Below are positions 1,978-40,818 of a stretch of 40,818 nt of DNA, one piece after another; position 1 is the first letter of the stretch, and each line of letters begins with the position of its first letter. This DNA is from Parvularia atlantis. Lineage: Eukaryota; Opisthokonta; Rotosphaerida. The notes under the pieces are model-generated. The model did no database searches. It was not told where the DNA came from and saw only the letters and a list, made by a program, of their open reading frames with translations. The stretch covers positions 1 through 40,818 of the forward strand of contig CALSCO010002145.1 of NCBI GenBank assembly GCA_943704415.1, given 5' to 3'. A program made the translations under genes and the position numbers.

Positions 1978-3919
1978 ATGGTGCGCGCCACGTCTCGTGC
2001 GCTTCGGCCTCACGCGTCGCGCGCGGGCGACACAGGAGTCGAACCGCGACGAGGCCGAGCGCTGCCTCGCCATCGCCGAGGCGCGGCTGGTGGCGGGCGA
2101 CGTCGACGGCGCGCGCAAGTTTGTCAAGAAGTCGCTTGGTCTGTTCCCGACCGACCGCGCGAGGTGCGCGTGTGTGCGCCGGCGGACGCGGCTGACGGGC
2201 GGCACGCGCGCAGGCTGTTTGACCGCAAGCTGCAGCACAAGGCCGACAGCGCACCGGCGCCCGCGTCGGCTGGCGGCGGCAGCAACAGCGGCAGCGAGAG
2301 CGAGGCGCCGTCGCGGCGGTGTGTGCGCCGCGCGCGTGTCACGAGGGCGGCGGCTGAGAGGCGCCAAAGGGCGTCGACGGCCTCGACCGCCCCGCCCCGC
2401 GAGCACACGCCCGAGCAGGTCGCCATCGTCAAGCGCGTGCTCGCGCTCGACAGTTACTACGAGGTGCTCGAGGTGACCAAGGAGGCCACCGACGTCGAGA
2501 TTAAGAAGTCGTACCGCAAGGTGATGTCGCCCGACGTGCGCGCGGCACAGCGCCGTGACGCTCACGCACTCGCGCGCGTGCGTCTCGTCCTGCAGCTCGC
2601 GCTCTTGCTCCACCCGGACAAGAACGCCGCACCCGGCGCCGATGAGGCGTTCAAACGTGCGTGCTTCGATCGGCCTTGCAATCGACACGCTCACGCACGC
2701 GGCGCACGCAGGCGTCAGCGACGCGTTCACTGTACTCAGCGACCCGGCCAAGCGGCGCAACTACGACATGTTTGGGCGCGTGCCGGCGCGCGGCAGCGGA
2801 GGGTCGCCGGACGCGGGGATGCGACGTGCGTGCCGCTCGCTTGTGCTGCTTCGCGCGCAAGAGGAACCGACCGCACGATCGCGCGCAGGCGGGCCATACG
2901 ACAACGGCATGTTTGAAGGCGAGCTGTCACCCGAGGAGCTGTTCAACCTGTTTTTCAACGGCATGCCGCTCAACCGCGGGTCCGGTATGTGCCGCACTGA
3001 CACGCCAACCAGCGGCCGCGGCTCACGCGCTGCACTGCACGCACGCCAGGGTTCCGCATGTACACCACGTCCATGCGCAACGCGCGCGGCTTCCGCCCGG
3101 GCGTGGACGACACGAACGACGACGGCGACACGCGCGCAGCGCGCACCGGCGCGGGCGGACCAGGGCGGCCAGGGGCGCGCGCGCCGCGGCCCGTGCCGAG
3201 GCCAGAGACGTCGTTCTTCGTCGGGCTGCTGCAACTGTGCGCCGCTCGCGCCCTCCGCGTGGCCCGCGTGCTAACGGCGGCGCCCGGCGCAGTCTGCCGC
3301 TGCTGCTGCTCTTGTTCTACTTCACGTCGTCGCCGATCGAGCGGCCGCTGTATAGCCTGCAAAAGCTCGACTCTTTCACGGTGCGCAGGAGCGGCACGCG
3401 CGGTTGCTCGTGCAGGCGCTGAGCAGGCGCGCACAGGTGCCGCACAAGAGCAGCGTCCTCAACGTCGACTACTTCGTCGAGCCCGGCGTTGACAGCAAGT
3501 ACACGCGCGACCCGCGCAGCCTGGCCAAGCTCGAGGAGGCCGTCGAGCAGGACTTTCTCGACCGGCTGCAGATGAACTGCCGCGTCGAGGTGCCGCCCGC
3601 CCGCTGTGCCGTGCCGCTGCTGACGCTCCGGTCGCGCACTGTGTCAGGACAACACGCGCCAGCAGGTCATCCGGCGTGCGCAGCTCTTTGGCAGCGCGCA
3701 GGACCTCGACCGCGGGCGCGCCATGCAGACGCCGAGCTGCGACCGGCTGCGGCAGATGCAGGTACGCGGCGCGCTCTTTGTCGCCTGCCGCGTGCTCACG
3801 TGCGCGCCGTGTAGGACCTCAAGAACGGGTCACGCAAGGCCGGCGACACCGTGGCGGCGGGCGGCGTGACGGGGCGGGTGTCGCCGACGCCAGCGCCGGC
3901 GTCGTCCGCTGCCTCGTAG
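1978..3919 (+). CDS. DNAJB12/DNAJB14-like ER membrane J-protein
   Basis: This is an Hsp40 co-chaperone of 451 residues, predicted to be tail-anchored in the ER and to recruit Hsp70 for quality control of membrane proteins. The N-terminus ESNRDEAERCLAIA matches the DNAJB12/14 signature. The J domain (about residues 120-190) carries LLHPDKN with the HPD triad and ends in RRNYDMFG. A Gly-rich stretch follows, then one membrane segment (LLPLLLLLFYF) and a DUF1977 tail ending near QTPSCDRL. Ten introns are inferred: 1981-2035, 2164-2213, 2521-2595, 2657-2711, 2826-2888, 2985-3049, 3237-3292, 3381-3436, 3590-3647 and 3762-3814. Exon 1 is only the ATG. The 2521-2595 intron has a weaker GTGATG donor but restores a normal J domain. 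CLYBL starts 24 bp downstream. Confidence 0.93.
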
Positions 3920-3943
3920 TAGACTCTGTTTGTGTGCAGACGC

Positions 3944-5282
3944 ATGATGCTGATGCGGCGCGCGATGTCGTCGGTCGCGGCGCGGCCCGAGCGCGTGCGC
4001 CGCGCGCTGTTCAACGGTGCGGCCGGCATCCCATGCTGCTCATGCTCGGGCCGCGCGCCTCACGCGCCGTCCGCAGTGCCGGGCAGTGACGAGCGCAAGC
4101 TCGCCAAGGCCGCGACGCTGCGCGCCGACGCGATCGTGCTCGACCTGGAGGACGGCGTGCCGCTCGCAAGCAAGGCGGTGGCGCGGCGGCTGGTCGCGAC
4201 GGCGCTGGACGTGCGCGAATAGCTGCCTACCGCCGTGCAGCCTGCGCCTCACGGACGGGCGACGCGCAGACGGCCGAGATGCCCGCGCACGCCGAGCTAG
4301 CCGTGCGCATCAACGCCGTCGGCTCGGGCCTCGAGCGCGACGACCTGGCGGCGGTGCTGCCGAGCGCGCGGCTGCAGACGCTCGTCATCCCCAAGGTCGA
4401 GCAGGCGGCGCACGTGCACGAGGTCGCCGCGCTCGTGGACGCGCGCTCGCCAAGGTGTGTGCGCAGTCGCGTTGTCGTGCTGATCGCTCACGGCGCACGC
4501 AGCCCGAACCGCGTGCGGCTCATCGCGTGCATCGAGAGCGCCCTCGGCCTGCTCAACGTGCGCGAGATTGCGGCGGCCGAGTCGCGGCTGGACGCGCTGG
4601 TGGTGCGCGCCGACGTCGCACAACGGCCGACGACAGACACGCTCTAGCGAACACGCGCGCCGTCGCCAGTTTGCGTCCGAGGACTTCTGCGCCGACCTCG
4701 GCATGATCCGCACGGCGCACCGGCGCGAGCTGCTGTACGCACGCTCGGCGATCGTCACGGCCGCGGTTGCGCAAGGGCTGCAGGCACGTCGGCGGCGGCT
4801 GGTCGGCGCTCGGCTAACCCGGCCGCGCCCAGGCCATCGACCTGGTGTGCATCGACTACAAGAACATGGACGTGCTGCGGGACGAGTGCCGCGAGGGCCG
4901 CGAGATGGGCTTCACGGGCAAGGTGCGCGTCTGCATACCGCCGCGTGTGTGCTGGCTCACGCCGTCGCGCCTCCAGCAAGCGATCCACCCGGCGCAGATC
5001 GACGTCATCCAGGAGCTGTTTGCACCGACGCCGAAGGGTGCGCGTGGGCTGTTGCTGCGCGCTGTGCTCATGCTGCAGTGCGCGGCAGAGGTCGCGTGGG
5101 CCGGACGCATCATCGACGGCTTTGCCCAGTCGAACGGCAAGCCGTTCAACCTCGACGGCAAGATGATCGACATGCCAGGCACGCGCGTGCTCCGTCTGCG
5201 CACGCGCAGCGCGCTCACACCACGCGCAGTCGTCAAGTGGGCGCACAAGGTCATGGCACGCAGCAAGCAGCAGCAACAGTAG
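3944..5282 (+). CDS. CLYBL: Citramalyl-CoA lyase (CLYBL-like), mitochondrial
   Basis: A member of the HpcH/HpaI aldolase/citrate lyase beta family. In animals CLYBL cleaves (3S)-citramalyl-CoA to acetyl-CoA and pyruvate in the matrix, the last step of itaconate/C5 dicarboxylate breakdown. Visible motifs are VPGSDERK, VLDLEDGV, IPKVE, RLIACIES (catalytic/metal Glu), FASEDFCADLG (metal Asp), MGFTGK, AIHPAQI and MIDMP. The Arg-rich start MMLMRRAMSSVAARPER is a plausible targeting peptide. Introns: 4017-4076, 4211-4269, 4455-4502, 4603-4669, 4784-4832 (GC-AG), 4923-4976, 5038-5088 and 5179-5229 (GC-AG, 51 nt, in frame if retained). The spliced product is 299 residues. The stop lies 4 bp from the stop of the convergent AAA gene. 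Confidence 0.93.
4784..4832 (+). other. GC-AG intron (CLYBL)
   Basis: The donor GCACGT follows GLQ, with a CTAAC branch site and a CCCAG acceptor. It joins GLQ to AIDLV, contiguous in the CLYBL family. The nearest GT donor gives the wrong frame. Confidence 0.85.
5179..5229 (+). other. Probable GC-AG intron (CLYBL, last intron)
   Basis: The donor GCACGC and acceptor ACGCGCAG define a 51-nt, stop-free segment, so retention would add 17 residues without a frameshift. Splicing gives the shorter, family-like MIDMP-VVKWAHK join. Confidence 0.55.
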
Positions 5283-5286
5283 CTAG

Positions 5287-7270
5287 TCACGTGTAGGCGA
5301 GGTAGCGCAGTAGCTCGCCCGGTCGCACGGACGGCTCAGAGTCGCGCACGGCGGCGGCAAAGTCGGCGCCGGTCACGACGGCCTCGACGCCCGGCGCGTC
5401 TGCCAGCCGGTCAACGGCGGCCATCGCCGCGCGCTGGCACAGAGCGTACAGATCGGCGCCGGTGAAGCCTGCGCGTGCGTGCGCGTCAGTCTGGCGCTGA
5501 ACCTGGAGGCTACACGCACCGGTTGTGCGGGCCGCGACGCCGGCGAGGTCGACGTCCGCGGCGAGGCGCATGCGTGCGGCGTGGATGCGCAGGATGTCTG
5601 TGCGCTCGCCTTTCTCCGGCGGCCCGACAAACAGCCGCGTATCGAGGCGTCCTGCGGGTTTTGTTTGCGCACGTCAGCACCGCATGCGTTTGTGCTGCCC
5701 CGCGCACCAGGCCGCATGAATGCCTCGTCGATGCGTTCCGGTGCATTCGTCGCGCCGAGCAGGAACACAAAGACGTCGTCGCCGGCGTGCTCGAGGTCGT
5801 CCAGCTCGAGCAGCAGCTGCGAGACCATCTGCGCCCGGGGCGGTCAGCAGTGACAGCCCCCCCCCCCCCCCCCAGCGAGCGACTCGCATGCCACCTTGGA
5901 CTGCACTACGTGGTCCGAGTCCTTTGACCCAAACATCGCCTCCATCTCGTCCAGAAAGACGAGGCACGGGCTGCACCGGCGCGCCTGCCGGAACAGCCGC
6001 GCGATCGCCTTCTCGCTCTCGCCGACCTCGGCACGCAGCAGGTCCGGGATGGTCGCGGCGATGAACTGCCCGTGCAGCGCCGTGGCGGCGGCCTTAGCCA
6101 GCATCGTCTTGCCCGTGCCCGGCGGGCCGAACCTGCACGCGTGTGTTGGCCAGGTGGCGCGCACGACGGACACGCACAACAGCAGGCCGCGCGATGGCCG
6201 GATGCGCATGCGACGGTACGCCGCCTGCTGCTGCTCCTGGGCACCGCGCAACGCGACCTGCAGCGCCTCCTGCACTCGCCCCCCCGCGTAAGACACCGCG
6301 GTGCGCGTCGTCAGCAAGCGCGTGCCTTGGCTACCGCGAGCCCGCCGATGCTGTCCCACGGCACGGCCTCGATCGCGCGCGGCAAGAACGACTGCAGCCC
6401 CGCCGACGGTCGGTACGCCCGCCGCGCCGCGTACAAATCCTCTGCGCGCAGCACGGGCAGCGACACCTCCGCGGGCCACTCGCGCGCCGCCGCATGCCGC
6501 AGCGCCTCGGCAAAGAGCGCATCGACGTCGGCCTGCGCAAAGCCGTAGCACTGCTGGCTGAAACTGCGCAGCACCTGTGTGCGCGCCCTTTGCGTAAGCG
6601 GCGCACGGCTGCCTGCGGGCACCGCGCACGTCGGGCGTCACGTCGGCGTCGAGGTCGTAGCTGCGCGCCGTGTCGTTGATCAGTGCCTCACGCTCGGCCG
6701 CCGTCGGCTCGTCCAGCAGCACACCGTCCTGCGAAGCGCCGCGTGAGCCGCTCGCACGCGCGCAATCATCTGCGAGCGCACGACAAACGCTGCCGCGACG
6801 GCGTAGTCGAGCCGCCGCTCGTCGTCGACAATGCCGATCTGCGCGACGACGCGGTCTCAGTGGCCGGCAGCAGCAGTCCACGCAGAGGCGCGCACGTGAG
6901 ACAGGCCGGGGCGCGCGAGCACGGCGAGAAACGCCTCAGTGAGCAGCGGGGACGTCGCGTCGCGCGGCAGCAGCTCGTCCAGGCTGTCCCACACGACGAC
7001 CACGCCGCCGCCCTCTTCGTCGGCCCCATCGACGATGCGCGCGAGGGCGCGTTCGGGCGCGCCCGGCTCGGCCATCAGCACGTCCATCGGCGCGACCAGC
7101 CGCACGCGCCGCCCGCTTGCCTCGATCATGCGTCGCACGGCCGTCGTCTTGCCTGCCGCGCGTCGATTGAGCCGTCCGCGGCACGATGAAGACGACGCAC
7201 CGACGCCGCTGCGCCCCGCGACGAGGACGGCTGTGGCGCGGCCGCTGTCACCGAACCGCACCGCCACCAT
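5287..7270 (-). CDS. Tandem AAA+ ATPase of the CDC48/AFG2 (SPATA5) type
   Basis: A two-domain type II AAA+ ATPase of 498 residues. D1 has an unusual Walker A (GRSGVGKTT) and a Walker B reading VVVVWDSLDE, with Ser where Glu is expected. D2 is canonical: DSIGGL, GPPGTGKTMLAKA, VFLDEMEAMF, the GATNAPERID sensor, RPGRLDTRLFV with arginine fingers, and GFTGADL. The linker style and C-terminus (DFAAAVRDSEPSV) resemble the AFG2/SPATA5 group, which remodels pre-60S ribosomes. The protein is short and lacks an obvious N-domain, so SPATA5L1-like or another paralogue is possible. Introns: 5469-5519, 5652-5707, 5829-5894 (holding a poly-C/G tract), 6133-6177, 6270-6325 (GC-AG), 6575-6629, 6729-6781, 6839-6895 and 7153-7200. 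The start ATG is 24 bp from the divergent HCF-like start. Confidence 0.85.
5857..5873. repeat. 17-nt poly-C (poly-G in sense) tract inside an AAA-gene intron
   Basis: The run lies inside intron 5829-5894, between the donor and the CTGAC branch-like sequence. It does not interrupt the coding sequence. Confidence 0.9.
6270..6325 (-). other. GC-AG intron (AAA ATPase)
   Basis: The donor GCACGC follows AAG (GGLAVAK), with a TGCTGACG element near the 5' side and an acceptor GTGCAG. It joins GGLAVAK to EALQVAL, the normal D1-D2 linker. Confidence 0.7.
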
Positions 7271-7294
7271 GGTGACAATGCGCGTGACGCGATC
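7271..7294. promoter_or_regulatory. 24-bp divergent start-to-start spacer
   Basis: Only 24 bp separate the inferred ATG of the AAA ATPase (minus, 7270) from the first in-frame ATG of the HCF-like gene (plus, 7295). If the HCF-like protein starts instead at the ATG at 7334, just before the first Kelch repeat, the spacer is 63 bp. Either way the two genes must share promoter and 5' UTR space. No TATA-like box is visible. Confidence 0.55.
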
Positions 7295-10200
7295 ATGATG
7301 ATACACGTCAAGAGGCGGCTGCACGCGCGCCGCATGCCCGAGCCGGCGCTGCGCCACGGCTTCGCGCTGGGCGACGTGGGCGACGGGCGCCACCTCGTCG
7401 TGGCCTGGGGCGGCGACCGCGGCGTGCTCGGCGACGTGTGGCGCTTCAACCTGCGTGCGTTTGCCCGTGCGCGCGACGTTCGTGAAGAAGGCTCACGAAA
7501 GGCGGATGGCGCCACAACGCAGCCGCGGAGGAATGGCTGCAGATCAATCCCAAGGGCGAGGCGCCGCGCGCGGCCGCTGGTGTCGCGTCGACGACGCTCG
7601 AGTGGGGCGGCGCCGCGCTGCTCGTCATGTTTGGCGGCGTGCGCGAGTACGTCGACCGGGACCTGTTCACGAGCGACGTGCGTCGCGTGCGACGTGAACG
7701 TGAACGCGACGCATCGGCGGCTGACGAAGGCGACGGCGAGCAGATCGCCTGCCTCAACCTCAAGGCGAGCACGTGGTGCGACGTCGCCGTTAGCGGCGAG
7801 GTGCCCGTGGCGCGCGTCGACGCGACGCTCACGCGCATTGCCGCCGACAAGGCCGTGCTGTTTGGCGGCGTGACGCAGCTGGGCGAGTGCGTGCAGACCT
7901 GCCCGGTGCTGCTGCGGCGCACACGCTCACGCGCGCGCAGACGCCTCAACGACGCGTACACGCTCACGATCGGCCTCGACGTGGCCGACTTCATGGATGG
8001 CCGGCGCAAGGTCGTGCAGCGCGTCAACGCGCATTGGGAGCGTCTGCAGCTCGTCGGCGCGCCACCCGCGCCGCGTACGGGCCACACGGCCGTGGCGACG
8101 GTCGACCAGCGCGTCGTCGTGTTTGGTGGGACGGCCGCGAACGGGCTTCGTCTGGACGACGTGGCTGTGATGGATATGGGTGCGCGTGCGCGGCCGCCTA
8201 CCGTTCGCGCCTGACGCTGCGCACAGACGCGCGCCAGTGGATCCAGCCGCGCACGTCGGGCGACCGGCCCGAGGGGCGCACGATGCACGCCGCCGAGATG
8301 ATCAGGGACGACCGGGTAAGCGTCCGCGCACGACGCGTTGTAGGCGCTCACGCCGCGGCGGCAGATGCTCGTGTGCGGCGGCTGGACCGCGCGCTCGCCC
8401 GACTCGAGCGACGGCAGCTCGTCCGACAGCGACGCGGACGGCGACGGCAGCGACGGCGAGCAGCGCAGGCAGCCGCAGCATTACCGCTTCCACAAGCTGC
8501 CCGCGCGCATGTCGTGCGAGGTGCACACGCTGGACCTGAGTGCGTTTACGGCCGCAGCGCGTGTGCATGTGCGCGCGTGCACGCCAAGCCTCACGCGCGC
8601 GCGCGGCGCCAGGCACGTTCAAGTGGGCCAAGATGAGGACCAACGCCGCGCTCGAGCTGTGCCGCGCGGGGCACAAGATCATCAAGGCGCGTTGTGTGCG
8701 CAACGGCAGCCGGCATCTGACGCACTTGCGCGCCTCGCTCAGATCGGCCAGAAAAGGGACCTGCTCGTGTGGGGCGGCCGCGTTGTGTCGTCGCGGTACC
8801 GGATCCAGCGCATGATCAGGAACGCGTTCAGTCTGTCGCTCGTGTCAGGTGGCGCGGCATCGCAACGCACACGCATGGCACTTCTAACGCAGCTGCGTCA
8901 GCCACGAACCGTAGACAGAATCCGTTGATGTTTTGCAAGCAGTACAAGGCCCCCGCCGCTGCCGCCGAGGACTTCGACGAGGACGACAACGACGACGCTG
9001 ATGACACCTACGATAACAAGCCGAGGTCGCGCGACCGCGCAAACAGCACGCCGCGGTCGCACGAGCGCCGGCGGGACAACGAGGATCAGCGGGTGCCGCC
9101 GAAGCGTTCGCACGAGCGCAAGCGGGACGTCAGCGACGAGGCGCCCGCGGTCGCCCAGCGCAAGCGCAATCACGACCAAGCGCCCTCGCCCAGCGTGCTC
9201 GCCCCGACCGATCCGCGGCGCCCGGTCGCGAGTGTCGCTCTCCCGACGGACCCTCGGCGCGTGTCGATGCTGCCTCCGCCAAGCGATCCGCGGCGCGTCC
9301 TGTCCCTGCCGCCGCCGACCGACCCGCGGCAGCCAAAGCCGAACGCAGCCAGCCCGACGCAGCAGGCCGAGCCCGCGCCCGCGCCCGATCCCGAGCCGCA
9401 AGCGCTGGTGCCGTCTGCCGGCAAGCGCGTCGCCCTCCCGACCGTCAAGAAGGCGCGTGTGCCGATGCGCTGCATGTGCATGCCCTGACGCGTGCGCTCG
9501 CAGAGCACTTACGTCGACTACGACCTCGAGTTCTCGATGGCGACGACCCACTCGATCGTTGTGCGCTATGTGCCGTCTCGCGCAGGTGTCGCGCGTGGCC
9601 ATCGCCCCCTCCTCGTGCGCCGAACCTGACGCGCGCACAGATGCGCCGCCGCTGCCGGACACCATCGGCCTGCAGCTGCGCTACGCGCGCCGCTGGCACT
9701 GCGCCGGCTGGGTGGACCCGGTGCGTCAGTGCGCGCGCCGCAGGCCCCTCGTGCTGACCTGCACCGATCGCGGCAGACGAGCGGCAACATGGCCATCTCG
9801 CCCGTTGTGCCGACGCACCTGCTGACGGGCCCGGGCGTCGAGGTTGTGGCACTGGTGACCCTGTGTGGCGCTGGCTCCGCCGGTCGGTGCTCACGTGTGC
9901 TGACGCTGAGCGTGCGCCGCAGCGATGGCGAGGTCAAGAGCCTCGACAGAATGTGCAGGCTGTACGAGGTGCGCGTGATCTATATCCCGTCGATCGACGA
10001 CGTCTTTGTTCTGTCGAACGAGGAGCGCTTCCACATGCAGCTGCGTGCGTGCGCCCCTGCCGGCACTCGCTCTTGTCCGTACTGAAGCTTGCGCGGCTGC
10101 GCAGGGGCCCCATTCGAGCCTCCGTCGGCGGTGCAGTTTGTGGACATCGTGATCGACGACGAGAGCAACACGGCCTCGGTGCGCCTTGTCCGTTTAAGCG

Positions 10201-13200
10201 CTTCGCATCTGAGCGGCGGCGGCGGCGCGTGCACGCAGCTGTCGTGGGCCCAGCCGGCGTCGTCGGGCACGCACGCACTGCTGTCGTACATCGTCGAGGT
10301 CAGCAGTGTGCCGTCAGCAGAGGCTGACAACCAGGCCTCGCTCGAGGACCGAGGTGCGCGGCGCTCGCGCTGTGTCACCTCTGACGCTCGCGTACGATGC
10401 GACCAGGCCGGGCGGTGCTCGGCCGCGCGAGCTTTGTCGAGGTGCACCGCGGTGGACCCGAGGGCTTGTACTGGACCATGGCCGGCATGGACCGCTCGCA
10501 CGAGTACTGGTGCGCGCGTTCGCCCGTGTCGGTGCGCGCTGACGTGCGCGAGCGCGCAGCTACCGCGTGTTTGCGACGAACGCCATCGGCCGCAGCGCGT
10601 GCGATGCATGTGTCGTGGTCGTCTTCGAGCGCGACGGTGCGTCTGCGGCTGCGACTTTCGCGTCCCCTCACCCCCGTTTACGCGCCGCAGCGCAACTCAC
10701 GCCGCGCCGCGTCAAGGTGCCGCACGAGCGGCCGAACGTCGCTTTCACCTCGTGGTTCGAGGCGCACAACAAGCCGTGGCCGGATGCCGCGACGGTCGCG
10801 GCGCAGCTCCAGCGCGACGCCGCAATGAAGACCGAGCGTGCGCACAGCGCATCGGTCGTCAAGCAGGACCGCGCCGACGAGCCCGAGAACGTGGCCGAGA
10901 GCGCTGCGATGGACGTCTCGACGGCGAGCGCGACCGCGACCGCGACCGATGTGGTGGTGGCTGCTGAGGATGCAGCATCCGCGCCAGCCGCGCCAGAGCC
11001 AGAGCCAGCCGCGCCAGCGGACGCACCGCCAGAGCCAGCAGCGCCTGCAACGTCGTCGCCACCGACCGCGCCGTCATCGTCAGCGATCGTCCCGCAGTCC
11101 GACCCGCCTGCACCATGGTCGCAGCCAGAGCCGGAGCCGGAGCCGTTCGTGAGCGTCGAGAGCGTGGACGTGCCGCAACACAAGCCGACGCCGCCGACGC
11201 CGACGCCACAGCCGCCCGTGTCCCAGGAGGACAACAGCGACGGTATCGAGCTGCTCGACGTCGAGTTAGACGACGCTGTCACGCCTGTGTCGTCGCTGCG
11301 TCCGTGGGCCGTCGCCGCGTCGCCAGCCAAGCATCGGCGCCGCGTGCAGCCAGCGCACGATGGGTCATGGCTGTGGAAGCGTCGCATGATCGACAGCGTG
11401 ATCGAGGGTGCGTGCAGCCGCGTCGTGTGAGAGCAAGGCTGACCCGCACAACCGCGCTGCAGTCGACATGCAGACGACCGAGGCCCCCGTTCCTGCCGTC
11501 GTCGTCGAGCCCGCCGAGCCCCCAGCCGCAGCCGTGCCCAGCGAGGACCCGGTGTCCGTGCCACTGCCGGTTGCAGGCCCGAGTCCGCCGCTGCCGACGG
11601 TGAAGATCGAAGCGCCGCCCGCCCCGCCAGCGGCTGCACCACCCGCGCCCGCCTCGCCTGCGTCTGCCCTGCCCGCGCCCGCTCGACCGGTCAAGGCGGG
11701 GCTGCTGCCGTTCCAGCCCGAGGCGCCCCTGATGTGGCGCTCATACGGCCAGCAGCTGCAGCAGCGTGCACAGCGTCCGACGCGACCGCCGCAACATAAG
11801 TTGCGTCGGCTGTCTGTACCGAGCCAGCGCAAGCCGATCAGCAGAGCGAGCGACGACGATGACGACGACGACGACAACGAGGAGGAGGACCGCGCGGGCG
11901 ACGACGACGGCGAGGGCCGGCGCAGCCCGCTGAGCCCGACGATCCCCGCGCGCGGCGAGGGGCCCAGGCGCAGTACGGACGACGAGCCCAACTCGCCCGT
12001 CATCGCGCGCTCGGCCAAGCGCCTGCTGTCAAGCGAGGGGCCAGCGCAGATGGAGCTCTCACAGCGCGAGTCGATCGACGACCTGCGCAGCTCGATCGGT
12101 CGGGTGGTGTCGCCGCTCGCTTACAAGCTGCATGCTGCTGCCGTGCCCGAGCCGGTCGCTGCGCCTGCGGCTGAGCCAGTGGCTGTGCCTGAGCCGACGG
12201 CTGTGGCCGAGCTCGTGCCTGAACCTGAGCCGATCGTGGTGTCCGAGGACGTACCTGCTGCTGTTTCTGGACCGGACATGGTCGTCATTTCCGAGCCTGA
12301 GCCAGTGCATGAGCCGCCTACTGCTGTGCCCGAGCCTGCTGCTGTGGTCGCTCCCGCACCCAAGCCAGAGCCTGCGCCAGTTCCTGAGCTGGTCTCTGTT
12401 CCTCTGCTCGCGTTCATTCCCGAGACTGTGCAAGCGCCTGAGCCTGAGACTGAGCTTGAGCCTGAACCTAATCTTGAGCCTGTGCCCATCGTTGCATCCG
12501 CGACCGAGCAGCCCGCGACCGAGCAGCCCGCGACCGAGCAGCCCGCGACCGAGCAGCCGGTCGACGAGCAACTGGTCGTCGAACAGCCGGCGACCGAGCA
12601 GCCGCAGCAACTGAAACGACGCTTGATGCTGCCGCCGGTTGACACCACGCAGAGCACGGCCGTGCCGATTGCAGCCGGCCGCCTGCGCAGGTTGAGCCGC
12701 AGCAGCAACGGCGACGGCACCTCGCCGCCCGAGCCGTCGACGCCCGAGCCAGCCATATCGGCACAAAAGGCGAAGCGCGCCCGCGCCGACGCCGACGCCG
12801 AACATGCACCAGAAGCCGCTGCGCCTCAGCGACGCAGCAGTCGCAGCAGCATCGCCTCGCCTGAGCTGTCGCCGCAGCCCTCGCCGCATACGTCGCCGCC
12901 CGTCGCACCCACGGCCGGTCATCAGCGCCGCACGTCGCTGTCGGTCTCCACCGTCGCCGAGCCGCTGCAGCGTGGCCGTTCTGCGCATCCCGAGCCGCCG
13001 TCACTCGCCACGTCTGCCACGCCCGCCGTGCCCGTAACGCCGGACAGCCCGGCCAGCCCCGTGCTGGTGCGGAGCACCAAGCGGCCGCGGCGCGAGCTCG
13101 CCGGCGTGGCCCCGGTTGAGGCGGCGGTCACGATCGAGCTAGCCGACCGGGTGCGACGTGCATGCCACCGCGCCTCTGTGCCTGACGTGCCCGCCGCAGA

Positions 13201-13717
13201 TACAGCAGAGCGACCTGCACCTCGGCGCCCGGCTGGACGTGTATGACCGCCAGCGGCTCCACGTGTGGTGCCGCGTGCGTATCGTTGATCAGCGTGCGTG
13301 GCGTGGCGTGCTGCCGTCGCGCGTGGGCCTGAGCGCGCTCGGCAGACCCTCCACACGCACCGCAGCACTTTCGTGTCCACTACTACGGCTGGGCCAAGGA
13401 ACACGATCAGTGGATGACGGAGGATGAGCTGCCGTGCGTGCCTCGCGCGGGCCCGCGCTGCCCCGGCTCACGTGGGAGCGACCGCAGCAAATACGCCCGG
13501 CGCTGCCGCCCTGACGCCGTCAGCGGCAAGGACGACGAGGACGACGAGCTGCTGACGCGGCAGATCGACGGTGCGCGCCTCCCGTCGCCACCTACGGAGC
13601 CTGACACGCTTGTGGCGCGTGCGCGCACACACAGCACGTCGCGAGGAGATCGCGCATACGAGCCCGCACGCGCGCCCGCGGTCGCTGCGCCCGCCGCGTG
13701 CAGCAAGACCGTCGTGA
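7295..13717 (+). CDS. HCF-1-like Kelch/Fn3 chromatin protein with C-terminal Tudor-knot (chromo-barrel) domain
   Basis: A 1,753-residue protein inferred from 22 exons. Residues about 1-385 form a Kelch propeller laid out like animal HCF-1 (VVAWGGDRGVLGDVW, VMFGGVREY, AVLFGGV, VVVFGGT, MLVCGGW, LLVWGGR). A charged linker has PTDPRR repeats (from about 470). Fn3-like sequence follows (about 590-840: NTASLSWAQPASSG, LLSYIVEVSS, YRVFATNAIG), then about 800 residues of Ala/Pro/Glu-rich low complexity. Residues about 1641-1700 look like a Tudor-knot (LGARLDVYD, WCRVRIVD, HFRVHYYGWAKEHDQWM). Introns: 7455-7522, 7678-7743, 7887-7940, 8180-8226, 8316-8364, 8540-8612, 8696-8742, 8849-8892, 9459-9503, 9586-9640, 9721-9776, 10045-10104, 10179-10238, 10354-10406, 10510-10559, 10637-10690, 11408-11462, 13151-13199, 13308-13365, 13434-13487 and 13571-13634. 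The coding sum is divisible by three. 9777-10044 may hide another intron. A role as a nuclear chromatin adaptor is inferred. Confidence 0.8.
9195..9345 (+). repeat. Four PTDPRR-type peptide repeats in the HCF-like linker
   Basis: Within exon 8893-9458 the hexapeptide PTDPRR or a close variant (PSDPRR, PTDPRQ) occurs four times at intervals of about 14-17 residues, each followed by a hydrophobic/proline stretch. The DNA copies differ at several sites, so this is a conserved or old protein repeat rather than a fresh slippage array. Function unknown; a short linear binding motif is one possibility. Confidence 0.8.
12130..12480 (+). repeat. Pro-Glu-Pro (PEP/PEPV) low-complexity array with atypical codon use
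   Basis: This part of the HCF-like gene encodes repeated PEP, PEPV and EPEP units. The DNA is built from cctgag and gctgtg-type units, with many T-ending codons (cct, gct, gtt), unlike the surrounding G/C-ending codons. This suggests local expansion from a short seed. It stays in frame throughout. Confidence 0.8.
12499..12558 (+). repeat. 15-bp tandem repeat encoding ATEQP
   Basis: Four almost perfect tandem copies of a 15-bp unit (cgcgaccgagcagcc) encode ATEQP. Diverged copies (VDEQL, VVEQP, ATEQP) follow to about 12605. The unit is a multiple of three, so copy-number change would alter protein length without shifting the frame. Confidence 0.9.
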
Positions 13718-13758
13718 GAACGTTGCACAGCAGCCTGGCGACACAAGGCATCATTATT

Positions 13759-16530
13759 TCACCCCTCCAGGGCACCCTCAACGTTTGCGTGGATTGCGCC
13801 GGCCTTGCGCAGGTCCGAATACGGCGTGCTGTAGCCGGAGCCGGGCCACTTGCCTGCCGACGTGCCGGCTTGAGTCAGGCAGCACACGCGCTCGCGCGCA
13901 AGCCTGCACCGCACCGCCGCACGCCTTGTGCAGGCTGTAGATGGCCGCGGCGATGGCGGTCTCCATCTCGGCTGTGAGCGGCGCGTTAGGAACAGGCTGC
14001 GCCACCGCGCCACCGCGCTCGCACCGAGGTCGACGTAAAAGTCCAGGTGCTTCACCTTGCGGGCGTAGCGATCGTAGAGCTGATCGGGCGCTTTGATGCA
14101 CCTGTCCTCACTCGCGAAGACCTTGGTGCTGACGCAGTCGCCCGGCTTGCCCAGGCAGGCGTCCATAAACATCTTATTGCACTCCTGGACCTGCACGCGG
14201 CGCCCTCGCGTGAGCTGTGTGCCTTGTGCGAGGCGCCGCGCCCGCGAAGCGCACCCGCGGCTCCATGTCGAGATCAGGCGCGTAGCCCGTGAGCACAATC
14301 TGGTGGTGCAGCTCCATCAGCTTTGAGATCTGGTAAAAGTCGTTGTTGTAGTACGCTGGTGAGACCTCGATCTGCGGGCGGGGGGCGGGGGTTGCCCGTG
14401 AGCGCGGGCCGCCACGGCCCGTTTGCCGAGACGCACGACGGCCGTGCGCGGCTGCGAGAAGATGACGTTGACCAGCTGCGACGAGTGCGACGAAATGATC
14501 AGGCCCGACTCGGCAAAGAGCTTCATCTGCGCGGCAAGGGGCAGGCGTCAGTGCTTGTGGCGTGCAGTGGCAGGCCCGCGGCACCTGCTCGGCCGACGAG
14601 TTGGTCGCGTCGATGTACTTGACCTCGATCTCGCCGACGCGGAACTTGTTGCGCAGCAGGTCGATCACTTGGTCTTGGTTGAGCATGCGGCTGCCGGGCG
14701 GGGGCGCGTTAGCACGCGCGCGTGTCGAGCGGCCCTCGGGGGCGCTGCGCACCGGAGCGGCTCGCGGTTGCGGTAAAGGAAGACCGCGCGCGACGGCGGG
14801 CAGGTGTAGAGGTGGTGCTTGTAGCGCGTGTAGACGGCCGAGCGCAGCGTGCTCGCGTCGGCGGAGGACGTGGCGACCTGTGCCGTGCCGCAGGGCGTGA
14901 GGGCGCCGAGCGGGACATACGCGCGCACGCACAATCGCGGTAATGGACGTGGTCGAGAGCTGGTCCATGCAGATGCCGCCGCCCGGGGCGTCGTTGAGGT
15001 CGATCTTCCTGCGATCCGAGCAACGTCACCGCGTGTGCATCGCCCGCGCGCGCGCACGCACCAGAACGGCTCCTTGAGCGGGTAGCCGATGTCCTCGGTC
15101 GTGAGGTCGTAGATGAACTTTTCGTGCTCGGCCCACGGCGGGTCGAGCTTGTTGTACATGACGCGCGCGAGCTGCGGCGCGGCGCGGCGTGGCACGGTCA
15201 GGCGATGCGCAGGCCGTGCGTGCGGGGCGCGCGCGTGCGCGCCTTCGGGAAGGCGTACGAGCTGGCCTGGAGCATGACCGAGTGGAACAGGCCGTGCGAT
15301 TCGACAAAGTGCCCGATCTGGTGGCCCTGCACGTACGTGTCGAGCAGCCAGTTGTGCTCAGGCACGTAGCGCATGTTCTCGACGCTAGAGCTGGCGGCGG
15401 TGGACGACAGTTGAGCGCGGTCGGCTGCGCCGCGGCCTCTGGCGGGGAGCGCACCGCGGCACGAAGAGCGGGCGGTTGTCCTTCATGAAGCAGATGCAGA
15501 ACCGCGGCTTGTCCTTTGTGGGCAGCTTCTGGTCGCAAACGGTGGCCTGCTGCTGCAGACGCTCCAGCAGGGCGCGGTCGGCGACGGAGAAGATGGTGTG
15601 GGTGCCGTTGGTGCACGCGTTGAAGAACGTGCACACGCGGTACTTGCGCGGGTCGGCATCAAAGATGACCCCTGCATATCGCGCGATCGGTTGGGATGAC
15701 TGGCGAAATGCGTGGTCGGGCGCGCACGCGCGCTCACCGTGCGAGTCGCCCTTGCCGTAGCCCTCCCAGAGCTCGTTGCCCTGGATGCGCGGGCGCAGGT
15801 TGCGGTCGTAGTACGGGAAGGGCAGCACTGCGGGGCGCGGCTTAGTAACGCGCACGCGCACAGGCGAAGACGCACGCGCGCCGTTGGCCGGCTTGAACTC
15901 GAGCGGGCCGGTCGGGCGCGCGGGCCGGGGCTGTGTGGGCGGGCTGGTGGCGATGGCCTCGTCGGCCGCGGGCTCGTTCTGCACCGCGGCGATGCGCTCG
16001 GCGAAGCGCGGGCCGTCCTCGAGCAGGTCCTTGTTGCGCGGTACGACGCGCTTGGTGGGCGCGGTCGTCGGGGCGCTGCCGCCGACGCCGGCGAAAGACA
16101 GCAGCGCCGCGAAGCCGCCGTTGCCGTCGTCAGGTGCGCGCGGCTTGGTGGTAGGGCGCGGGGGTCTTGTCACGGTGCTGGCGAGGCGGCCCTCGCTGTC
16201 CGCGGCAAAGTCGTCGCTGTAGTACTCGTCGTCGTCGTCGCCGGCGCCGAGCAGCGTGTTCTGCACGGCCACGACGAGCACGACCGTGGCGACGATGGCG
16301 AGCGCGAGCAGCAGCAGGCTGCGGCAGCGCAGGCGCAGCCCGCCGGCCACGCCCCCGCCGGCCACGCCGCTCGGGTGTGTGTGGCGCGCCGTGGTGGCGG
16401 CGGTGCCGCGGAAGAGCGGCAGGAGCGGCTGCGACGAGGCCTCGGACGGGAACGCGGTGGCGGCGGTGGTGGACGGCGCGGCGCGGCCCTTCTTCTTCGC
16501 CAGCGTCGCGGCGACGTGCGCCTTTCGTGC
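13759..16530 (-). CDS. GT61-like glycosyltransferase, type II membrane protein
   Basis: A predicted Golgi/ER glycosyltransferase. One membrane segment near the N-terminus (SLLLLALAIVATVVLVVAV) is followed by an acidic, Pro/Thr-rich stem, as expected for a type II enzyme. The C-terminal domain carries the GT61/DUF563-style core LFAESGLIISSHSSQLVNVIF, then AVVEVSPAYY, matching the family pattern around (G)xHGAxLTNxxF. Donor and acceptor sugars cannot be inferred. At least eight short introns interrupt the gene, for example after GDSH near 15752 and before MKLFAESG near 14530. The 3' end GALEG-stop is at 13759. The start is unresolved: no in-frame ATG precedes the membrane segment. A 50-nt intron with acceptor near 16531 may join it to an unseen upstream exon. 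Its stop is 41 bp from the stop of the convergent HCF-like gene. Confidence 0.75.
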
Positions 16531-25470: not shown

Positions 25471-25905
25471 ATGCTGATGCGTCGCGTGGCCGCTGCAATC
25501 GCGGCGCGTGCGGTTCGCGTGCGGCTGCTCAGCACGGCCGCGGACGCGCCGCCGCCCGCCGCTACTGCCGTGGCCGCTGCCGTACCACGCGCGATCGCAC
25601 CGAGCATGATGCCAGCGAGAGCGATGCCGTCCGCGAATGCGATCGCGACACCGGCCACCACGGCACCGCCTGCATCCGCGAATGCGAGCACGGCACCGCA
25701 GGTCGACTACGAGGGGCTGCTGCTCCAGTTCCACGTGCGCGCCCTGTCGGCCCCGACGCGACGCAATCGGGCGGACGGCTGACAATTCGCGTTTGCAGCG
25801 CCTGCGCAAGAACCACGCGAACCAGGAGGCCGCGCGGTATCTAGAGATGCTCCGAGGCTCGCCCCTGCACTACCGGTGTGTGTGTGTCTGTGTGTGTGTG
25901 TGTGC

Positions 25906-25940
<35 letters not shown>

Positions 25941-26794
25941 TGTCTGTCTGCGCAGCGCGTCTCGCCTGTCGCTCACGCGCGCTGCCAGCATCGCGAAGAC
26001 GATCGACGAGGTCTTCCGCAACCGCGGCAATATCCAGCGCGCGCGCGTGCAGTACCAGTCGATGTTTGCGGTGAGCACAGCGGTGCGGACATCGTGCTGC
26101 CGGTGCTCACCGCGTCCGCGCAGGACAAGCTGCTTCCGATCGCGCCCGAGGCGACGACGTCGAGGCTGGCAACAGCCCTGTGCTTTGTCTACTCGCGCGT
26201 GGGCGACGTGGCGACGCTGCGGGTCCTGACGGAAGCGTTCTTTGCGGGCCGGCTTTGTGCGTCGCAGTCTGTGCAGCGCCGTCAGCCCGGGCCACTGACC
26301 CATCGCGCGCAACAGCGCTGCAGAAAGCGAGCCAGACGCAGCGCGAGCACGTGGCCAAGGCGCTTACGAGCGCGTTCATGCAGTGCGGCGAGTACAAGCA
26401 GGCCCAGGAGGTCTACGAGCGGACGCAGCCGTGGCGCAGCGAGCGATACGGCGGCTCGGTCAAGCTGCACCTGATGATCCGGTGCGCGCACGCGCCGTGC
26501 GCTTCTCTCGTTCGCTGCGCTCATGCCCGCCAAACCAGGCAGGGCCGCATCAGCGAGGCCGTGGACGAGGTCGGACGGATGGCCGCCAAGTACAAGGTGC
26601 GACACCGCTGCACACGCGCGCGCACCTGCACGACTGACCGCCGCGCGTGCAGTCCAGGAAGCCCGATGCGGTCTCGGACTACGACCTGCACTGCGCGTTC
26701 ACGACGGTCCTCAAGGAGCTGCTCCTGCCGCACGTGAAGACGCTCGTGCCGCACGAAGGTGCGCCTCGTGCGTGTGCGTGTGTGTGTCCGTGTG

Positions 26795-26855
<61 letters not shown>

Positions 26856-28164
26856 GCGCGCGCGCGCTCGCACGTGCTGACGGCCAGCAGAGCGCGAGAG
26901 CACGCCCTCCAACGTGCAGATTGTGCAGGACCTGTACACGCTCTACATCGGGCTGTTCAGGCTGCCACCCGACCTCGAGGTGTTCATCACGGTTATGCGC
27001 GGCTTCTGCCGGCGCTCGTACGCTCGCCAGACGCACAAAGGAGGGGAGGCGAGGCTGACGCGCACGCCCAGCCTTCACAGCGAGGCCGAGGTTGTCCTGC
27101 TCGACGTCATCAGGCGCAAGCTGCCACGCACCCTGACGTTCTACACGACCGCGAGTGCGTTGCTGGCCGATGCACCCCCGCGCCTCCTCAGCACCGCCAC
27201 CCAGTCACGGTCGCCGGTTACATGCACAAGCGCGACCTCGTGCGCCTGCTCTTCGACGACGCATTCAGCGACAAGGACGTCAGGCACAAGTGCGTACGCA
27301 GGTCGGCGCTTGACATCGACTGACTCACGCGGCGCCAGGGACACGATCTTCTACGCCGCTGCGGTCCAGGCGTTCAGCAGCTGCGGCGACTTTACCATGG
27401 CGTTCATGGTGCGGCGCGGCGCTCGCCGCACAGGGCTCTGCGCTGACGGCGCAACACAGGTACTGCAGACGCATCTGGAGAAGAACCTCGACTTTGAGAT
27501 CGGCAAGGTGTACACGACGCTGAGCATCGGGCTAGACAAGGCGCGGCGGTGGGATCTGCTCGTCCAGCTGTACCACCTGCAGACGTCGCGCGGCGTGGCG
27601 ATCATCTGTGCGCCGCCTGCGTTCGATGTGCGTCGCTGATGTGGTCCGCAGCCGACGACTGGACGCGGTACCTGCGCGCCGGCCTCGCGACCGACTCGCA
27701 GGTGCGCCGTACGTTATTGGCGTCGCCGACGCGGCTCACGGCTCGTGCAGCTCGCGCTCAGCATCGCGCAGCGCGTCTACGACGAGTGGCAGGCCAAGAC
27801 CAAGACGTTCAAAAAGTCGACGCTGCTGATCGCCAACAACATCTTCCTCGCGAACAGTGCGCGCGCCGGCCGTGCGCTCGCCTGTGCATGCAGCTGATAC
27901 CGCGACCCGCGGCAGAGGTCGAGCCGCCGTACATGCTCACGCGCTACCTGTTTTCGAACGACCGCGTCATCGCGCGCGAGACGCTGCGCGCCTGGGACGC
28001 CAAGCAGGCGTCGTTCGACTACGCCGACGAGGACAAGGACGAGGCGGCTTGGCTGCGGCTGCGGTACTCGCAGCCGGCAAGCCCCGAGGCGCCCGACGAC
28101 AACGACGAGGACGACAAGCGTGCTCTGGCCAGCCACCCCGACCCTGCGCCCGCAGGGAGCAGCT

Positions 28165-37418: not shown

Positions 37419-37491
<73 letters not shown>

Positions 37492-40729: not shown

Positions 40730-40733
<4 letters not shown>
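40480..40733. other. Upstream region of the Osh6-like gene
   Basis: This stretch of about 250 bp is GC-rich and open in the Osh6-like frame for much of its length (Pro/Ala-rich translation) but lacks an in-frame ATG. It is either 5' UTR and promoter or a missed N-terminal extension from an exon outside the window. Confidence 0.4.

Positions 40734-40818
<85 letters not shown>
40734..40818. repeat. (GA)n array at the window edge
   Basis: A pure GA dinucleotide array of at least 85 bp runs off the end of the window, probably marking an assembly break. It is the same motif as the intronic array at 37421-37490. Confidence 0.95.

Follow-up and report, generated by a model that had tools for sequence, protein, structure and literature searches.

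The stretch of DNA analysed here (the window, 40,818 nucleotides, approximately 70% G+C) lies on contig C513 of an assembly of 16.25 Mb in 616 contigs. At positions 7295-13717 of its + strand it carries a gene whose predicted product of 1732 amino acids, encoded by 23 short exons, runs from an N-terminal Kelch propeller through a disordered linker, a hydrophobic-rich stretch, one Fn3 domain and some 800 disordered residues to a C-terminal Tudor-knot (chromo barrel). The most fitting reading is that known domains have been combined in a new way, in an opisthokont that is probably a fungus. The gene and its parts are as follows, each with the basis of its assignment:

7295-13717, + strand: whole gene, 23 exons, 1732 amino acids
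7334-8848, + strand: Kelch propeller, residues 14-361 aligned, with an insertion after GGW as in HCF-1 (Pfam and alignment)
8902-9458, + strand: disordered linker, residues 384-569, with four [ST]DPR[RQ] repeats (composition and family search)
9504-10104, + strand: hydrophobic-rich stretch, residues 570-692, of no recognised family (Pfam and composition)
10105-10636, + strand: Fn3 domain, residues 693-815, interrupted by introns 10179-10238, 10354-10406 and 10510-10559 (PF00041)
10691-11407, + strand: first exon of the disordered P/A/E-rich region (composition)
11408-11462, + strand: intron that links the C-terminal half with the Kelch/Fn3 part (score 14.1)
11463-13150, + strand: 562-codon exon encoding a long disordered segment, with one frame of six open (stop counts and shuffles)
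13200-13293, + strand: first half of the Tudor-knot, LHLGARLDVYDRQRLHVWCRVRIVD (profile matches)
13346-13433, + strand: second half of the Tudor-knot, HFRVHYYGWAKEHDQWMTEDEL (profile matches, PDB match and shuffles)
13488-13717, + strand: two exons encoding a short C-terminal tail, with the stop TGA at 13715-13717 (gene model)

The spliced model was predicted from a three-frame reading together with intron signals. It starts with the ATG at 7295 and ends with the TGA noted above, and when it was rebuilt the start, the stop and the open spliced frame given in the first-pass annotation all held, although 23 exons were counted where 22 had been claimed because the 60-nt in-frame intron 10179-10238, added by a second splice and codon model, was missing from the earlier version. 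An alternative start is possible at a second in-frame ATG (7334). In the 21-intron model, the introns of which were partly selected by us, intron lengths range from 45 to 73 nt, all 21 introns end in CAG and 20 of them contain a branch-point-like CT[ACG]A[CG] site. The weakest junction (8849-8901) has a score of 3.6, and the second model placed the intron at 8842-8918 instead.

The identity of the C-terminal domain as a Tudor-knot, a kind of barrel known from histone acetyltransferase complexes, is well supported by its sequence. Its two halves sit on consecutive exons. Against the Pfam Tudor-knot profile (cut-off 20.8), a 75-residue piece gives 21.9 bits and a 121-residue piece 20.3 bits, and the best PDB sequence is the EAF3/MRG15 homolog 2lrq (E 2.7e-4), with MRG701 (5in1) also near. 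A profile built from seven other barrels (four PDB sequences and three proteins of this genome) is aligned by hhalign over 56 columns with a probability of 95.6. It scores the C-terminal 132 residues at 22.2 bits, whereas none of 5000 shuffles of them exceeds 8.0 bits. A scan of viral contigs with the barrel piece returned 21 pattern matches, none of them a relative. Profile searches of the spliced pieces bore out the proposal that Kelch, Fn3 and a C-terminal Tudor-knot are present in one open model.

The Kelch piece matches Pfam PF24681 with 155.6 bits (155.8 in a comparison of four propellers), and it is colinear with the Kelch domain of human HCF-1, the comparison sequence for which was entered by hand, with 95 identities in 369 columns (26%). 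The insertion after GGW falls at the same place in both proteins in this pairwise alignment. In the linker that follows the Kelch domain, a family search gave nothing with E below 1, and the four [ST]DPR[RQ] repeats are found at residues 486-527 with a spacing of 12-13 residues. The next 123 residues (570-692) have a hydrophobic fraction of 0.40 and are probably folded; they have no Pfam match up to E 10, fn3 included, and they were rejected as a counterpart of HCF Fn3-1c, as 105 of 1000 shuffles were equally good. Where the first-pass annotation had seen Fn3-like segments, one Fn3 domain was found and several were not. Its PF00041 match (19.6 bits, E 0.0011) is below the cut-off of 25, as is that of the human HCF-1 Fn3-2 control (23.1 bits), while the Fn3-1c control gives 27.6 bits (E 3.4e-6). 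The match appears once intron 10179-10238 is removed; with the intron kept there is no Pfam fn3 match up to E 10, and with that query phmmer found titin Fn3 repeats with a whole-sequence E of 5.8e-6, the best single stretch being weak. As to the Fn3n half-repeat that follows Kelch in HCF, neither the Kelch piece nor the linker gave an fn3 match at E 10 or better, a weak test in that the human Fn3n control itself gives only 15.3 bits (E 0.024). Two motifs resembling nuclear localization signals, KAKRAR and TKRPRR, are located in the long disordered exon.

We judge it quite probable that 7295-13717 is a single gene. The alternative is two neighbours that meet in the low-complexity stretch: one would encode Kelch and Fn3 and could stop at, for instance, TGA 11428-11430, and the next would start within that stretch and encode the Tudor-knot. 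Without intron 11408-11462 merely 37 bp would lie between the stop at 11430 and the first ATG of the next frame, and the score of this intron (14.1) compares with no antisense donor-acceptor pair in the gene region that reaches 12; in the sense direction 18 pairs score at least 12, as do 9 of the 21 model introns. The exon that follows (1688 nt) has no stop in its own frame versus 8, 19, 5, 4 and 8 in the other five, none of 2000 dinucleotide shuffles was stop-free in any + frame, and there is no intron-like pair with a score of at least 9 (length 42-75) by which the open frame could readily be left. The periods of tandem repeats are divisible by three all along the gene (18 of 18 rows, whereas outside it the window has 11 such rows among 24, rows overlapping). 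A single gene at 7295-13717 was also reported, in three settings, by a first gene finder for which this gene had served as training. That same finder, however, fused unrelated DnaJ and HpcH neighbours elsewhere in the window, and the second model, whose training drew on 14 other genes (112 introns and 6396 codons), let the gene stop at 12614 with either of two settings; with one of these it predicted a separate gene at 12626-13717. The second model is not fully independent, as its training structures were predicted by the first, and its genes were mostly judged by eye, one TPR and one MRG15-like protein among them having been put to Pfam. The synonymous-codon score of exon 11463-13150 is also lower in the open frame (-37.5) than in frame 0 (-12.6, with 8 stops), and since the consecutive parts of the open frame score -2.4, 12.4, -18.7, -33.7, -5.1 and 9.0, the loss, and with it the doubt, is located at 12025-12586. 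Poor codon preference there, the early end in the second model and the DnaJ-HpcH fusion by the first finder speak for two genes, which we nevertheless regard as improbable. Gene finding with loose penalties was rejected, as its genes were implausibly long: most of the window was merged into them, and the present gene was predicted as 7334-15864.

A closer question is whether the propeller belongs with HCF at all or whether a Kelch protein of another lineage, similar to KLHDC2 or LZTR1, gained Fn3 and Tudor-knot independently, in which case the likeness to HCF would be convergence and the partners unrelated to HCF/NSL. Several results weigh against kinship with HCF. The Kelch piece misses the cut-off of the Pfam HCF family (Kelch_HCF, 100.4 bits versus 113) and scores higher with PF24681, the reverse of human HCF-1 Kelch (699.5 bits with Kelch_HCF and 325.9 with PF24681), while L020, another Kelch gene of this genome, is above the cut-off (134.2 and 281.7 bits, respectively) and outscores the studied propeller. 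L020 also aligns better with HCF-1 (Smith-Waterman score 278) than do the studied propeller (218) and L021 (198), and the best PDB sequences for the Kelch piece are LZTR1, dynein heavy chain alpha, FBXO42 and KLHDC2. For the Fn3 domain, BLASTP to HCF-1 Fn3 was non-significant (E 0.11, with intron 10179-10238 still in the query), and after removal of the intron its score against HCF-1 Fn3-2 was reached by 39 of 1000 shuffles. In the wider genome, searches gave no match to PEHE, for which no control was positive, or to OGT (GT41), for which the control was positive in 2 of 14 genomes. On the other side, the ratio of Kelch_HCF to PF24681 bits is highest in the studied propeller among the four compared (0.64, versus 0.48 for L020, 0.41 for L021 with 78.4 and 193.0 bits, and 0.32 for L022 with 36.0 and 112.7 bits), the GGW insertion is common to it and HCF-1, and a maximum likelihood quartet of four taxa with no intermediate species pairs HCF-1 with the studied propeller against L020 and L021 (bootstrap 68). 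A whole-genome Kelch_HCF search listed L020, L021 and L022 and not the studied gene with its short exons. The HCF profiles of Fn3-2 and Fn3-1c give 5.4 and 3.2 bits on the Fn3 region and are equalled by 15 and 46 of 5000 shuffles, respectively, a likeness so weak that it might come from any Fn3 domain. What survives of the earlier description as HCF-1-like, which is partly supported, is the order of the parts, the Kelch alignment and the quartet; with Kelch_HCF below its cut-off, a weak Fn3 likeness and no Fn3n found, we call the protein HCF-like and not a member of HCF. An independent origin from another Kelch lineage seems to us rather unlikely. We regard as equally doubtful the reading in which an early-diverging fungus would have a genuine non-animal HCF ortholog joined to a chromo-barrel reader of its own. 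Neither CETH, THET nor a taspase-like motif was found in the protein with simple patterns for HCF-PRO repeats and the taspase site. HCF-2 also has no HCF-PRO repeats (PMC6582346), and their absence does not exclude HCF.

There is similar doubt about what the barrel does. It could be a structural or protein-protein domain that has lost the ability to read methyl-lysine, leaving the protein purely a scaffold, which we consider a real possibility without favouring it. The aromatic cage of MRG15 consists of four positions, which we take to be Y26, Y46, W49 and W53, and to the detriment of a reader function two of them (Y and W) are clearly kept, the first is unsafe to align and the last is H. This replacement of the last cage tryptophan makes methyl-lysine reading uncertain. 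The HY.GW core is retained (HYYGW), however, and the barrels of MOF and Esa1/Tip60 have incomplete cages and yet contribute RNA or nucleosome contacts, and contact of the studied barrel with nucleosomes or RNA would be equally likely.

We propose that a nuclear scaffold is the most likely role of the protein, as far as its sequence, with the two motifs resembling nuclear localization signals, can tell. With somewhat better than even confidence we read the gene as encoding, in an opisthokont that is probably an early-diverging fungus, a long nuclear scaffold that acts in the manner of HCF-1 and has a chromatin-contact domain of its own. The propeller would bind transcription factors or chromatin enzymes through short motifs in them, further partners would be recruited by the disordered middle and the C-terminal barrel would contact nucleosomes through a histone tail, DNA or RNA, such that the scaffold could anchor itself to chromatin with no need for a reader subunit. 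Possible partners, known here from genes alone, include a MOF-like protein (L003) and a zf-C3Hc3H protein (L025), the gene for the latter being, we presume, of the KANSL2/INO80D type.

The genome contains three separate Tudor-knot matches, in L001 and L003 (MYST-type) and in L002 (an MRG protein), as determined by a search for which the control was positive in 1 of 14 genomes and which did not list the barrel of the studied gene, presumably because an intron splits it. Read by eye, L001 appears to be KAT5-like, L003 MOF-like and L002 MRG15-like, and with such separate proteins in the genome the fusion does not replace them. The L002 barrel has WDED where MRG15 has WDEW and is otherwise a close match.

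The source is likely an opisthokont, and probably a fungus, based on two genes of the assembly. For the EF-1alpha (L008), the alignment covers 263 residues of eEF1A1/eEF1A2 entries and of 1f60, which we take to be yeast EF-1alpha, and 249-252 residues of EF-1alpha entries that we take to be archaeal; the extra loop is presumably an opisthokont mark, with the limit that no EF-1alpha of any other eukaryotic group was recognised in the list of matches. A Lys2-like alpha-aminoadipate reductase (TIGR03443), which we assume to be a fungal mark, is present on contig C181 as 15 colinear pieces covering positions 294-1341 of 1390, and it is the colinearity that is the evidence, as no single piece passes the curated cut-off and 12 of 14 prokaryote controls matched below it.

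On the minus strand, a divergent AAA ATPase gene seems to begin approximately 24 bp before the start of the studied gene (window 7268-7295), with the position of that start being our own reading, and the gap would be a very tight shared promoter region. At the other end, a stop of a convergent glycosyltransferase-61 gene is located 41 bp past the HCF-like stop (window 13717-13761), although the true end is uncertain: of three settings of the first gene finder, a single one placed it there, and the other two gave 13468 or 12922. Tandem DnaJ/DUF1977 and HpcH/HpaI-type genes occupy 1978-5282. The window starts with a 39-base poly-G run and ends in a dinucleotide array, and long GT and GA arrays are found at 25876-25947, 26768-26856, 37421-37490 and 40730-40818. 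The L022 Kelch protein of this intron-rich genome is predicted to be encoded by a single exon (376 amino acids), and a gene that by eye is RGS-like seems to adjoin it.

If the fusion of an HCF ortholog with a reader is true, one chain would combine scaffold and reader roles that in animals are shared out, within NSL/MSL and COMPASS complexes, between HCF-1, MOF/MSL3 and PHF20, and this would represent an older or more compact wiring of an acetyltransferase scaffold in which gene fusion links HCF and chromo-barrel proteins. Such a fusion would bear directly, as a 'Rosetta stone' case, on whether proteins of the HCF type function jointly with chromo-barrel proteins, showing that they do, and their joint action would be testable in a fungus.

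HCF-1 is a scaffold common to several animal chromatin complexes. The studied protein resembles HCF-1 and HCF-2 of animals in having an N-terminal Kelch domain with an insertion after GGW, Fn3, a long disordered region and motifs like those for nuclear localization. It differs from them in a Kelch domain below the Pfam HCF cut-off and an Fn3n that was not found, in the position of Fn3, which is in the middle of the protein rather than C-terminal, and in the added Tudor-knot. The passages on HCF consulted in PMC6582346 and PMC6607013 mention no such barrel. The latter review gives an Arabidopsis Kelch protein as an HCF1 ortholog by sequence conservation, so that the idea of HCF-like Kelch proteins in non-animals is not new. 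Among the titles and visible abstracts of one open-access library no Kelch protein with a chromo barrel was found, which is not proof of absence. With MRG15/Eaf3, MOF/KAT8 and Tip60/Esa1 the protein shares the Pfam Tudor-knot barrel and its HY.GW core, but its barrel is C-terminal and the cage incomplete, and the pieces scanned, which leave out much of the disordered exon, showed neither an MRG nor a MYST domain. A further parallel is RAG2, a recombinase subunit in which a Kelch propeller is combined with a PHD reader and no Fn3. While the studied protein has a Tudor-knot rather than a PHD finger, and an Fn3 domain in addition, in both cases a propeller is joined to a domain of the histone-reader kind within one nuclear protein, in ours by prediction.

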